Assembly (NCBI GenBank): GCA_009780825.1
Contig: WQZH01000005.1
Span: 62,001 to 126,000 of the forward strand
Direction of reading: 5' to 3'
Source: Desulfobulbus sp.
Lineage (GTDB): Bacteria > Desulfobacterota > Desulfobulbia > Desulfobulbales > Desulfobulbaceae
Length of the DNA: 64,000 nt
Part shown: positions 59,238 through 63,972 of the stretch, one piece after another
Position numbering within the stretch: the stretch's first letter is position 1
Layout of the letters: every line of letters begins with the position of its first letter
The notes under the pieces: generated by a model
What the model saw: only the letters and a program-made list of their open reading frames with translations
Told to the model about the DNA's origin: nothing
The model's database searches: none
Translations under genes and position numbers: made by a program

Positions 59238-60158
59238 TCAGCACATGCAAACCTGGTTTTTGCCGTTACGCTTTGCCTCATACATGGCTATATCCACCCG
59301 CTGGATATAGCTATCCGGCGCTTCCCCCGCCCGGTAGAGGCCGCATCCCATGCTCGCGGTAAATTGCGGCACACCATCCGCCACATGGCCTTCTATGGTT
59401 TCCCGGAGCTTCTCGGCAATGACCAAGGCCTTCCACAGCTCGCAGGCTGGCAGGAGAATGATAAACTCTTCCCCACCGTAACGCGCCACGATATCGTCCC
59501 GACGCAGATTGGCGCGCAGTATCCGGCCAAGGGTCCGCAACACTTGATCTCCCGTGATATGGCCCAAGGTGTCGTTGATGACCTTGAAGTCGTCAATATC
59601 AAGCATGATGGCGGAAAGCGGATGGCCTGCGGATTTGCTCTTGCGGATTTGCACCGGTAACGACTCCATGAAGGTGGCTCGATTCAGCACCTTGGTCAGG
59701 CCGTCAAGCTGGGATTTTTCCTTGTAGAGCTCCAGGCTGCGGGTCAAGACACGGTTTTCCAGTAGTTGAGCGCGGGCCTTGCCCAAAATCGCCGACCTCT
59801 CATTGAAGTCATCCTGGAGCAGCCGGATGATGATGACCTGTTCGCAGCCAAAAGTCTGCGCTATGGCGATGAGAGCGGACTCATCCCCGGTTTTGCCTTC
59901 TTCCTGCCAGATACCCGAGGAAAAGACGTCTGTTGCCTGATTGATGAAAAAGTGTTCCACTTCCTCAAAAAAGATCTCCAGCATGTTGGAGTGGTGCCAC
60001 GGTTCCACACAGGGCCCATCTTCGGAAGGAGGGAACAGGTTGTCGTAAAAGCAGGGGGCCTGCCCGAAAAATTCATATTTTTTAACGCCTACACGCCTGA
60101 GCAGGGCAATATCGAGCGCGTGCAGAACCTGTAGGGCGAGATGTTCCTTGGTCTTCAA
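59238..60158 (-). CDS. GGDEF diguanylate cyclase
   Basis: The 306-residue soluble protein has a novel-looking N-terminal input domain (about 1-145, with ATDVFSSGIWQEEGKTGDES) and a GGDEF domain (about 150-306). The active-site motif is GGEEF. An inhibitory I-site RRDD lies exactly 5 residues upstream, so it should make c-di-GMP with product inhibition. It starts inside the GTPase stop (4-nt overlap, ATGA) and is the last gene of the GTPase/OmpA operon. The input domain has no membrane segment. Confidence 0.88.
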   Translation of the reverse strand: MKTKEHLALQVLHALDIALLRRVGVKKYEFFGQAPCFYDNLFPPSEDGPCVEPWHHSNMLEIFFEEVEHFFINQATDVFSSGIWQEEGKTGDESALIAIAQTFGCEQVIIIRLLQDDFNERSAILGKARAQLLENRVLTRSLELYKEKSQLDGLTKVLNRATFMESLPVQIRKSKSAGHPLSAIMLDIDDFKVINDTLGHITGDQVLRTLGRILRANLRRDDIVARYGGEEFIILLPACELWKALVIAEKLRETIEGHVADGVPQFTASMGCGLYRAGEAPDSYIQRVDIAMYEAKRNGKNQVCMC

Positions 60159-60664
60159 ACGTTTCTCCCAACCTTCAGCATTGCTTTGGCCAGGGACTGG
60201 AAGGCCTCTTCCACCGACTGGCCTGTCTTGGCGCTAGTACGGAAAACGGTGATCCCTTCGGCTGCGGTCTGCTGAAGCATATCCTCAGAGATTTCCCATT
60301 GATCCGCCAGGTCATCCTTGTTGATCAAAAGGGCGTTGGGGATCGTGCCCATCTTGCCTAAGACCAGGGCGCGCAGTTCCAACGCCGTGTCCAGGGTTTC
60401 CGCCCGCGTTCCGTCAGCGACAACAAAAAATCCCATAGCCCCGCGAAGATAATTTATATTGACATCTGTAAAAATGTCCCGGCCTTCCATATCCCATAGA
60501 ATCATGCTCACTTCCTGGTCGGCAACAGTGATTATTTTTTTGCTGATCTTTACCCCAATTGTGGAAAGGTATTTGTCGGAAAAAACAGAATGTACATACC
60601 GTTCTACCAGGGATGTTTTGCCCACGGAAAAGGCGCCGAGCATACATATTTTTTTGTTGATCAT
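60155..60664 (-). CDS. Ras/Rab-like small GTPase
   Basis: The 169-residue single-domain GTPase has a complete set of G motifs: G1 GAFSVGKTS, G2 Thr in the STIGVKI loop, G3 WDMEGRD, G4 NKDD and G5 TSAKTG. The G3 box carries Glu where Ras-type GTPases often have Ala-Gly (WDxAG), so intrinsic hydrolysis may depend on a partner. It is of MglA/Rab type rather than translation-type. The upstream gene encodes a protein with a Roadblock-like region, the usual class of partner for such bacterial GTPases. Confidence 0.88.
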   Translation of the reverse strand: MINKKICMLGAFSVGKTSLVERYVHSVFSDKYLSTIGVKISKKIITVADQEVSMILWDMEGRDIFTDVNINYLRGAMGFFVVADGTRAETLDTALELRALVLGKMGTIPNALLINKDDLADQWEISEDMLQQTAAEGITVFRTSAKTGQSVEEAFQSLAKAMLKVGRNV

Positions 60665-60774
60665 GACTCTACGAAAAATTCAGCCCGCATCGGGCGTGTC
60701 CTTAAGAGGTTAGTGGGTACGGATAAACAGGCGCGAGACATTGTTTGGTGTTGGCGGCTCTCTTTAACCGGAAA

Positions 60775-62811
60775 TTATTGCGTGAAAATATCGACCCCAG
60801 AGGTTGCCGGCCGGGCAATATGCACGCGCAATTCAATCCGCCGGCTGGCTTGATCTTCCTTGGGCGCTGACACGGCCTGGCCGCTGGATTTTTCCCCTTT
60901 GGGGTATTGAGAACCCATGCCGTACATGGCGATGGGGATGCTGGAGCCCCTGGCGTACAGCATGGCCGCGACCGTGCGCGCCCTCTCCTGGCTGATCTCG
61001 TAATTCCGTCTTTCCAGTCCTATGGCATCCGCGTGGCCGTAGATGGTCAACGTGAGGACGAATCCCACATCGTTGACGAGTCTTTCCAATTCCACCAACG
61101 TGTCCACCGCCGCTTCAAGCTTGGGCGTATCCGTTGGCACCGGAATAGCCTTCCCTAGAGGAAACTCGATATCCGCGCTTTCAATCGATTGAATCATGGC
61201 GGTAATACGATCCAACAGTGGGTCTTTTACCCCGCTCATATCCACATGCTTGACGCCCGGCAGCGTGCGGGCCGTATCCTTGGCCCCGGCAATCCAGGCC
61301 AGGGGAGCGGTGCCGGTGAACACCAACGTGCCATGGCTGAAACGGATCGTCACGGTTGGCGGCAAGTCGATGGCATTTTCAGCCCTTCTGGCGACAATGG
61401 AAGGATCGTATGAAACATAGGGGATGATTTTAAAGGTAAAGGCATCCGGCTGAAAGCTGTGAGCCCGCAGCACGTCATCCGGCGTCCTCGCCAGATCGTC
61501 CTTGAGGAGCATGACCTCCCAAGGGCTGTCCGCAGCCTGGGTGACATGGGTGAGCATGAATCCCGGCTCATTCCGCAAAAAGCTGAGCCCTTTTTGCATG
61601 AGCGCCACATGGGCCGACTGTTGTTGCCTGAGTTCGCGGGCATAATACTGGAAAGAGCCGATACCCCCGACCAGGATCAGAAGCGCGAACAGCGGCAGGG
61701 CCTTGCCCCACCAGGGAAGGTCTTTTCCTTCATCCCGGTAGCGGGTAATGAGGAAGGGCTCAAGGTGCCGGGCAGCTCCAGCAAAAGGAGCGGTGTCACC
61801 GGAAAAGGATTCCAGGGGGGCGGCGAATTCAATGAGCATGGTTTCCAAGGTAGCGCGCAGACCTTCCCGGAAACCTGTTGGTGGCGTGCCGCGCAGGACA
61901 CAGGCCAGATAGGCCTGAGAATATTTTTCGATGAAAATGGTGAACTCTCCCAGATGCAAAGATTCCAGCTCACCCTCAGAGTTGCTGATAAAGCAGTCAC
62001 GGACGAAATCCTGGATGGCCGTCAGCATGGCCGAAACCATATCCGCGTCTTGCGTTCCCACCCCTTCATTGGTCAGGTGTGAGAGGACCAGCCCGGTCTC
62101 GCTGTGAATGAAAAAAAGCTGTTCAACCCGATAAGCGAGGGTGTGCAGCAGGACGATTTCACTGAATGGCTTGCCCGTGCGCAGGGCCTCCATTCTCCAG
62201 CGCACCCCTTTCCAGGAAAAGGACATTTCCAAGCTCTTGCTGAAACTTTCCAGCATAGACCGGAAGGTTTCAGCAATGGATTTGCGAATGGATGGCCCCA
62301 TGAGGGGAAAGAGAACGCCCACAAAGTCGGATTGATGCCGGTTGAGCGAAGATTTGAGGATGGCATTCACTGTGGGTTCCAGCGCGGTATTCAGGCGGTC
62401 GTCGTCGCCGCGCAGGAGCAGGGCCTCGGCAATTACCTCGCTCACCCGTTTGGCGTTCTGGCGAGGATCATTGAGGCCGTCTTTCAGCCGTTGAATGATG
62501 GTCAGCTCGCGCTGGAACAACAATGCGCGTAACCTGTTGAGCTCCTCGTCATCCGGGAGTTCCGGAAGGTCGCTCCACAGACCGGAAGAGACAGATGGCG
62601 CCTCGCTTACGCGGTCATAAAAAGGCGCTGCCACGTCTTTGGCGGAATAAACGCTGTCTTCTCCCTCCATGGAAGGAGTGTCCGCGGCACCGGTATCCGT
62701 ATCGGGCCGGGAGTCTTCGTCCGTCTGGGCTGCCGGCATGGGACTGGCATGAAGGCTTTCCGCTTCTCTACCCTCTGGAGAGAATGGAGAAGCGTTCACG
62801 GTATCCGTCAT
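60775..62811 (-). CDS. Membrane protein joining a Roadblock-like cytoplasmic region to an OmpA peptidoglycan-binding domain
   Basis: The 678-residue protein has an acidic, disordered N-terminus (1-85) and a helical block (about 90-215). A segment at about 225-335 has a pattern I read as Roadblock/LC7-like (VEQLFFIHSETGLVLSHL, SAMLTAIQDFVRDC, YLACVLRGT). A single transmembrane helix (370-388) leads to a BON-like periplasmic part (about 410-540) and a C-terminal OmpA/MotB domain (about 550-670). The last includes LTIYGHADAIGLERRNYEIS and SRRIELRVHI. It could tie the cytoplasmic GTPase encoded next to it to the cell wall. The Roadblock call is inference from sequence pattern. It is not Pal: it is far larger and has no lipobox. 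Confidence 0.78.
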   Translation of the reverse strand: MTDTVNASPFSPEGREAESLHASPMPAAQTDEDSRPDTDTGAADTPSMEGEDSVYSAKDVAAPFYDRVSEAPSVSSGLWSDLPELPDDEELNRLRALLFQRELTIIQRLKDGLNDPRQNAKRVSEVIAEALLLRGDDDRLNTALEPTVNAILKSSLNRHQSDFVGVLFPLMGPSIRKSIAETFRSMLESFSKSLEMSFSWKGVRWRMEALRTGKPFSEIVLLHTLAYRVEQLFFIHSETGLVLSHLTNEGVGTQDADMVSAMLTAIQDFVRDCFISNSEGELESLHLGEFTIFIEKYSQAYLACVLRGTPPTGFREGLRATLETMLIEFAAPLESFSGDTAPFAGAARHLEPFLITRYRDEGKDLPWWGKALPLFALLILVGGIGSFQYYARELRQQQSAHVALMQKGLSFLRNEPGFMLTHVTQAADSPWEVMLLKDDLARTPDDVLRAHSFQPDAFTFKIIPYVSYDPSIVARRAENAIDLPPTVTIRFSHGTLVFTGTAPLAWIAGAKDTARTLPGVKHVDMSGVKDPLLDRITAMIQSIESADIEFPLGKAIPVPTDTPKLEAAVDTLVELERLVNDVGFVLTLTIYGHADAIGLERRNYEISQERARTVAAMLYARGSSIPIAMYGMGSQYPKGEKSSGQAVSAPKEDQASRRIELRVHIARPATSGVDIFTQ

Positions 62812-63500
62812 TCTGACGACTCGGAGTATTCCTCGCTATTCTCCTCTTCAATCATTTCCGCATCAACGGAGGCAGACGCCGTATCAGTCCATTGACCGCT
62901 CAGCTTCACCGCCATTTCGGTCAACAGACTGGAAATCTGGGAGCGGGTCGCCATATCATGACGGATTTGAGCGGCGGTCTTGGCAAGAATATTCAGTGCA
63001 TCTTTGTACTTTTGCTCCACCTTGTCAGAAAGTCTGGCATTTTCCGACAGCAAGAGTTGCCTCAGTTCCCGTTCCGCGGCGTCCAGTGTCCCGGATAGGG
63101 CCTTGAGTTTCCGCTCCTGTTCCTGCTCCAGTGTGGCCAGGTCGCGCGTTACTTGGGCCAAGCCTTCGCTGCGCTCGCGCTGCTCGTTTTTCAATGCCTC
63201 CTGGCGTTCGGTCTTCTCCATTTTGAAGGCATCCAATCTTTCCCGCTGCTCGTTTTTGAGAGCTGCGCTCCGTTCTTCCTGCTCCTCTCGCAAGCGATGC
63301 AGAAAAGAGGTGGATTCACTTTTCATAAAGCTCTCCAAGGACTCAATACGATTCTTGACAGAATCCCTGAGGTCAGAGAGATTTTGCTGGAAACGTTCTT
63401 CCAAGCGCTGGAACCGGTTTTCCACATCTTTCATCTGGGTGCCTAGCAGCAGTTCGCGGACTTGTTCCATGGAATCCGGCTTGGCGGGAGCCTTACGCAT
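62808..63500 (-). CDS. Hendecad-repeat coiled-coil protein
   Basis: The 230-residue soluble protein starts after a perfect AAGGAGG. It is nearly all coiled coil. Residues about 73-116 contain 11-residue repeats beginning ER (ERSAALKNEQR, ERLDAFKMEKT, ERQEALKNEQR, ERSEGLAQVTR). The C-terminus is very acidic (EEENSEEYSESSE). It is the first gene of the OmpA-GTPase-GGDEF operon, overlapping the OmpA gene by 4 bases. A structural or scaffold role is likely; no known family is recognised. Confidence 0.78.
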   Translation of the reverse strand: MRKAPAKPDSMEQVRELLLGTQMKDVENRFQRLEERFQQNLSDLRDSVKNRIESLESFMKSESTSFLHRLREEQEERSAALKNEQRERLDAFKMEKTERQEALKNEQRERSEGLAQVTRDLATLEQEQERKLKALSGTLDAAERELRQLLLSENARLSDKVEQKYKDALNILAKTAAQIRHDMATRSQISSLLTEMAVKLSGQWTDTASASVDAEMIEEENSEEYSESSE

Positions 63501-63562
63501 ATAAAATCCTCCTTATGATGTCGTCTAGACAGGATATGGACAAAAGACTATGTCGTTTATCT

Positions 63563-63681
63563 GGTATCTTTTGTACAGCGCTTCGTACCTTGCTCAACGA
63601 AGGAAAATGAAAAAAAAGATACCTTAAACGGTATCGTTTTTAATATATATTAAAAACGTCATAAACCGTATCATTTTTAAT
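63563..63681. repeat. Repeated boxes upstream of the coiled-coil/OmpA/GTPase operon
   Basis: Two 19-base near-identical direct repeats differ at two positions: AAACGGTATCGTTTTTAAT (63626-63644) and AAACCGTATCATTTTTAAT (63663-63681). A third partial box GGTATCTTTT lies at 63563-63572. GATACC (63619-63624) is inverted to GGTATC (63630-63635). The region is AT-rich and 60-180 bases before the operon start, so it looks like an operator/promoter array. Confidence 0.6.
63635..63658. promoter_or_regulatory. 24-bp perfect palindrome
   Basis: From CGTTTTTAATAT to ATATTAAAAACG with no loop; a perfect dyad suited to a dimeric regulator. It overlaps the first 19-base repeat. Confidence 0.55.
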
Positions 63682-63754
63682 GCGCACTAAAAGATATCGA
63701 TAGAAATCTTTCCTGGAGTTGAGTGTCCTTACTTGTTGATTCGTCCACAAAAGA

Positions 63755-63783
63755 AGATTCAAAATCCCCGCCTTTCAGGCGGG
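63755..63783 (-). terminator. Terminator of the truncated autotransporter-like gene
   Basis: On the - strand CCCGCC-TGAAA-GGCGGG is followed by GATTTTG. The stop codon of the fragment is in the loop. The T-run is short. Confidence 0.45.
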
Positions 63784-63972
63784 CGGGAGTGTCCAAATGC
63801 CCGGCGCCCCGGGAGAGTTCTCTTGCGCGGCATTGATATTGATGATGCCGGTTTCGCCGGATGGACTGGCCCGCGCAAAGAGGGTGGCACCCACCAGGCC
63901 GCCGTTTGCAATGGTCAACGTACCGTCGCCCGCACCGCCAACATAAAGCGGGCCGCTATTCCCCCTCCCCGA
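63775..63972 (-). pseudogene. C-terminal fragment of an autotransporter/adhesin-like repeat protein
   Basis: The - strand frame gives about 65 residues including NSGPLYVGGAGDGTLTIANG, GLVGATLFARAS and INAAQENSPG. The glycine-rich LTIANGGLV pattern is typical of beta-helix passenger repeats in autotransporters. An in-frame TGA on the - strand at 63973-63975 blocks the frame and there is no start codon of normal kind, so the piece looks broken. The barrel domain is absent. Confidence 0.5.

Follow-up and report, generated by a model that had tools for sequence, protein, structure and literature searches.

Multi-site operators with inverted 6-bp half-sites are a general kind of bacterial regulatory DNA, and bidirectional intrinsic terminators are likewise a general kind of element. 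Features of both are found in the DNA described here, a leader that precedes an operon encoding a Ras-like GTPase. The gene set of the Group 1 Rup neighbourhood, to which this operon is compared, has been described by Wuichet and Sogaard-Andersen (2014; PMC4316618). In the portion of that survey cited here, Group 1 Rup is marked by a GTPase that lacks the Gln of the G3 motif, a neighbouring protein with an OmpA C-terminal domain, and a neighbouring cytoplasmic coiled-coil protein, and its output module carries an N-terminal invariant Gln. As a rule, Rup outputs either fuse a diguanylate cyclase to a phosphodiesterase or are histidine kinases; the same portion of the survey is silent on how these operons are controlled, and it records that, as of 2014, no member of the Rup subfamily had been characterised experimentally (PMC4316618).

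Here, we describe a computational analysis of the leader (63501-63737) of such an operon, located in a window of 64,000 nucleotides (the whole stretch of DNA that was analysed; positions 62001-126000 of contig 5 of genome G000) from Desulfobulbus sp. A preliminary description had drawn attention to an array of repeats in this leader and had suggested specific, perhaps cooperative, regulation of the operon behind it or foreign DNA at its edge.

Results

The array directly precedes, on the minus strand, a predicted operon of four genes (59238..63500), as the preliminary description had proposed for the GTPase operon. The genes were recognised from open reading frames and Pfam, and co-transcription is predicted from their spacing and overlaps: genes 1 and 2, as well as genes 3 and 4, overlap by 4 bases each, and a gap of 110 bases separates genes 2 and 3. 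Gene 1 (62808-63500) encodes a coiled-coil-like protein of 230 aa that has no Pfam match and is rich, by eye, in Glu, Arg, Lys and Gln; gene 2 (60775-62811) encodes a 678-aa OmpA-domain protein (PF00691 at residues 587-645, 32 bits against a cutoff of 27.2); gene 3 (60155-60664) encodes a Ras-like GTPase of 169 aa (Pfam Ras, 9.4e-29); and gene 4 (59238-60158) encodes a GGDEF protein of 306 aa (Pfam GGDEF, 4e-42). All are on the minus strand, where the gene 1 start codon (63498-63500) is preceded by AGGAGG (63508..63513), which we take to be a candidate ribosome-binding site.

The translation of gene 3 reads DMEGRD, so that no Gln follows DxxG and the GTPase is without the catalytic Gln of G3. 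This GTPase and the OmpA-domain protein are features in which the locus resembles Group 1 Rup as the cited portion of the survey presents it, and the diguanylate-cyclase output and the adjacent probable coiled coil may be further ones. The operon differs from the typical case in its output, for which Pfam matched GGDEF alone and no phosphodiesterase domain, rather than a fusion or a histidine kinase. Judged from their sequences, the four genes fit the published Group 1 set, the first protein being a probable coiled coil.

Upstream of gene 1, positions 63563-63700 have a GC content of 32%, against 57% for the whole window, and four GATACC-type boxes, one of them degenerate, lie within 110 bp. 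Box 1 (GGTATC, 63563-63568) belongs to a conserved promoter-proximal block on the minus strand, GAAGCGCTGTnnAAAnGATACC (63563..63584). The preliminary description had rightly noted this third GGTATC box but had called it upstream; the operon runs on the minus strand, and the box at 63563 is therefore the one nearest to it. Boxes 2 and 3 form an inverted repeat, GATACC-N6-GGTATC (63618..63635), which is a candidate operator and is also terminator-like. On the plus strand, exact copies of the 19-base direct repeat AAACSGTATCRTTTTTAAT stand at 63626-63644 and 63663-63681, 37 bases from start to start, and the second holds box 4, the degenerate CGTATC (63667-63672); with up to 3 mismatches allowed, the 64,000-nt window contains no others, and 0/100 shuffles had 2. 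These 19-mers are the core of a longer, imperfect 37-bp tandem repeat, a diverged duplication (63625..63692) whose 31-nt core (63625-63655 and 63662-63692) is identical at 24 of 31 positions. A perfect AT-rich palindrome of 24 bp occupies 63635..63658. Repeats, inversion, palindrome and AT-richness are all present as first reported.

Dinucleotide shuffles of 63501-63737 served as controls. A palindrome of at least 24 bp was reached in 0/300 (maximum 14), at least three GATACC/GGTATC boxes in 0/300 (maximum 2), and two 19-mers agreeing at 17 positions in 0/200 (maximum 15). The recurrent half-site and its symmetric arrangement are above chance by these counts, which overstate significance because the features were chosen after inspection.

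A search of the whole genome (2,748,357 bases in 56 contigs) for the 19-base box, the check that the preliminary description had named, located it with up to 3 mismatches at 4 places, the 2 exact ones being those of the array, and its reversed pattern at none; the box is not scattered. Exact GATACC-N6-GGTATC exists once in the genome, in the array. When as many as 2 mismatches were allowed, 124 sites emerged (control 87), and among those listed, in order of rising mismatch number, the array's is the only exact one; spacers of 0-30 bases gave 4, namely the array and 3 others (control 1). The pattern GGTATCNTTTT occurs at 16 places, 8 on each strand, against 10 for the reversed pattern; 2 of the 16 are within the array. 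Of the other 14, 12 fall within six-frame open frames 90 aa or longer, one of these (L047) being doubtful as a repetitive stretch, and 2 (L046, L048) lie outside; set against open frames in this way, the GGTATCNTTTT places gave no sign of a regulon in the genome. Near 1501 of L047 and near 110 of L048, on two contigs, very similar stretches carry several units like TATTATTTTCCGTTAA and are perhaps an insertion-sequence end. No regulator linked to the array was found, nor a known one that matches the GATACC half-site. Among the literature matches listed, none was recognisable by its title or the start of its abstract as concerning a GATACC/GGTATC inverted-repeat operator, and we do not claim that one is absent from print.

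Searches for promoters gave no sigma-70-like sequence in the leader of the window or in that of its nearest orthologue (G022), and no sigma-54-type GG-N10-GC in 237 bases of either. A promoter-like match lies on the operon strand 0.6 kb further upstream (L014 8161-8133), such matches being as numerous as expected by chance. The only known RNA or riboswitch reported, sau-5971, reached 24.6 bits, well below the gathering score of 90, and was rejected.

The nearest orthologous operon belongs to G022, a Desulfobulbus sp. MAG labelled isolate Pc512_bin139. The two Rup operons are 81% identical across 4296 alignment columns, and their leaders diverge immediately upstream of the start codon. Around box 1 the leaders have in common an ungapped stretch, 32/43 identical, that contains GAAGCGCTGTnnAAAnGATACC; the block GAAGCGCTGTnnAAAn is also common to both. 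Aligned over the whole upstream region, they score above 500/500 shuffles, a result carried by the ungapped stretch. We relied on the ungapped block and on shuffled scores because gapped identities are soft, shuffles of the distal stretch reaching 67-76% with free gaps against the 74% observed. Among 23 genus genomes, the composite block GAAGCGCTGTnnAAAnGATACC occurs without mismatch only in the window and in the orthologous G022 leader; with up to 3 mismatches it has 17 places (2 exact, 1 with 2 mismatches and 14 with 3), and its reversed-pattern control has 8.

At the place of box 2 the G022 leader carries GGTATCTTT, with 9 identical bases. GGTATC and GATACC are separated by 49 bases in the window and by 50 in the G022 leader, and GATACC stands 62 and 67 bases, respectively, from the start codon. 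The counterpart of box 2 rests on this position and these 9 bases, because 63590-63737, a stretch that contains box 2, gives no significant alignment with G022 when taken alone (88/500 shuffles as good). The GGTATCTTT...GATACC pair is not specific by itself: the genus set contains 8 other occurrences of GGTATCTTT-N30-60-GATACC (control 2). Conservation at the putative promoter of this one close orthologue consists of the proximal block with box 1 and of GGTATCTTT at box 2; the dyad, which is not intact in G022, the 37-bp repeat and the palindrome are not recognisably conserved there. Beyond box 2, repeat copy 2 matches the G022 sequence beside its GGTATC at a level attained in 71/2000 shuffles, which is suggestive only, and copy 1 is at chance level (1378/2000). 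Should the match of copy 2 be genuine, the window would have one 37-bp unit more than G022.

Two comparisons with G022 concern the surroundings of the leader. The leader of a neighbouring gene, which by eye we take to be hydrolase-like, is identical at 309/366 positions with 13 gap columns, against 85/114 with 21 for the Rup proximal leader; taken as a whole, the leader of the Rup operon has therefore changed faster. The Rup operon (59238-63504; L014 3238-7504) is inverted relative to its G022 counterpart (L015 6915-11200) and flanks a thi-like gene block, presumably of thiamine biosynthesis as judged by eye, on the opposite side. A rearrangement breakpoint is therefore close upstream. Such a breakpoint, the faster change of the Rup leader and the lack of significant alignment of its distal part to G022 would all suit a reading that confines function to the proximal part (~63505-63623) and takes the 37-bp repeat, with the palindrome, for a neutral tandem duplication rich in A and T. 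We regard this as unlikely: between the two diverged repeat copies the core of the box is retained, together with an almost perfect dyad symmetry, and one half of GATACC-N6-GGTATC is matched in G022.

The dyad invites another reading, the main rival to that of an operator, in which it acts as an intrinsic terminator in both directions and shields the operon from transcription on either side, the repeats and palindrome being AT-rich accompaniment. Like such terminators, it is a hairpin with a T-tract behind it on each strand (minus, T8; plus, G+T5), and it is called terminator-like on both. Calls in 63450-63850 number 3, the third being the insertion-sequence hairpin described below, against 0.4 +- 0.6 in shuffles; 63604-63662 folds strongly (z -4.50 on the minus strand, -4.84 on the plus strand), and a PAS gene lies upstream on the same strand. 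The stem, however, is weak, with 6 pairs, 3 of them GC, and -7.2 (minus) or -6.3 (plus) kcal/mol; flanking A/T pairs bring it to -9.2 kcal/mol on the minus strand, compared with -11.9 for the nearby insertion-sequence hairpin. Moreover, no hairpin is called at the dyad position in G022, and a terminator leaves box 1 and the conserved block unexplained. We consider a purely terminating role rather unlikely; operator and terminator roles may both be true of the dyad.

Beyond the leader, 63739..63783 on the plus strand is a relic of an IS200/IS605-type left end, with a CCCGCCTTTCAGGCGGG hairpin at 63767-63783. It aligns with five left-end-like copies in three genus genomes (G002, G009 and G016), one of which adjoins a Y1_Tnp gene, and it shares their ATTCGTCC start and their CCCGCCTTTCAGGC; it differs in that no transposase follows and in that it lies beside the array, not in it. 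An autotransporter-like gene fragment follows on the minus strand (63800..63961), 74% identical to positions 35578-35742 of contig 20 of the same genome (G000:C20), where the autotransporter-like gene carries a PATR repeat. The array sits between these remnants and the conserved block. Its AT-richness, and an IS200/IS605 end that starts 46 bases past the last repeat, might suggest that the array itself is of foreign origin or forms the end of a mobile element. The sequence is homologous to the genus left ends only from 63739 (ATTCGTCC) onwards, however, which leaves the array outside the element; the array has no further copy in the genome and no plasmid match, its phage matches are weak (7 records, E about 0.3), and the orthologue carries equivalents of the proximal boxes. 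A foreign origin is accordingly very improbable for the array, which is not recognisably foreign, and the earlier suggestion of foreign DNA at the edge holds for the sequence from 63739 onwards.

Related loci numbered 10, and leaders were readable in 7, one of them (L022) being the G022 contig; L025 and L028, whose contigs start within the operon, and L031, a weak match to the C-terminal part only, were left out. The array is absent from the 450 bases upstream of each of the six more distant orthologues, in which isolated boxes were a GATACC inside an upstream ORF of L030 and a CGTATC in L027. The OmpA-domain protein has matches in 17/73 genomes and is full length only in this genome and G022, that is, in 2/23 genomes of the genus, some of which are incomplete. 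Within the genus, gene 1 was found in the same two, and G007 gave a single weak match (E 9.1e-4). Of the 9 further loci, 7 come from records that bear the label Desulfovibrio, Desulfovibrionaceae or Deltaproteobacteria. One relative, 59% identical, sits on a contig labelled Gastranaerophilales. On these sequence comparisons, the patchy distribution in the genus and the relatives under other labels may reflect horizontal transfer or mislabelling.

Discussion

We read the region as the promoter/operator leader of the Rup operon, specific to that operon, with a candidate dimeric regulator and a tandem duplication in this lineage, and we give this reading a probability of about 45%. The specific regulation proposed in the preliminary description is the best-supported reading because the array lies directly before the operon, the proximal block and its box are kept in one close orthologue, with a second box at matching spacing, and the genome shows no scatter of the motif. 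The boxes are most likely sites for a putative regulator of the Rup operon.

A dimeric DNA-binding regulator would occupy the GATACC-N6-GGTATC dyad, with half-sites 12 bp from centre to centre, and the same regulator would also bind proximal box 1 (63563), ~55 bp nearer the gene in the conserved block. The promoter that it controls would lie somewhere between ~63510 and 63600. In this lineage the 37-bp duplication may have added weaker sites and the palindrome, repeat 2 being a weaker extra site. The regulator, its binding, any DNA loop and whether control is positive or negative are all matters of inference.

The perfect dyad, its half-sites centred 12 bp apart and the further boxes upstream of the operon, all candidate sites, resemble those of bacterial multi-site operators. 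It is quite unlikely that the array serves a dedicated, undescribed regulator with a GATACC-N6-GGTATC operator, with DNA looping between distant boxes and a duplication that tunes expression between Desulfobulbus-like species. In kind, the array is ordinary regulatory DNA rather than a new system, and a defined control region would offer a way to learn when a Rup operon is turned on.
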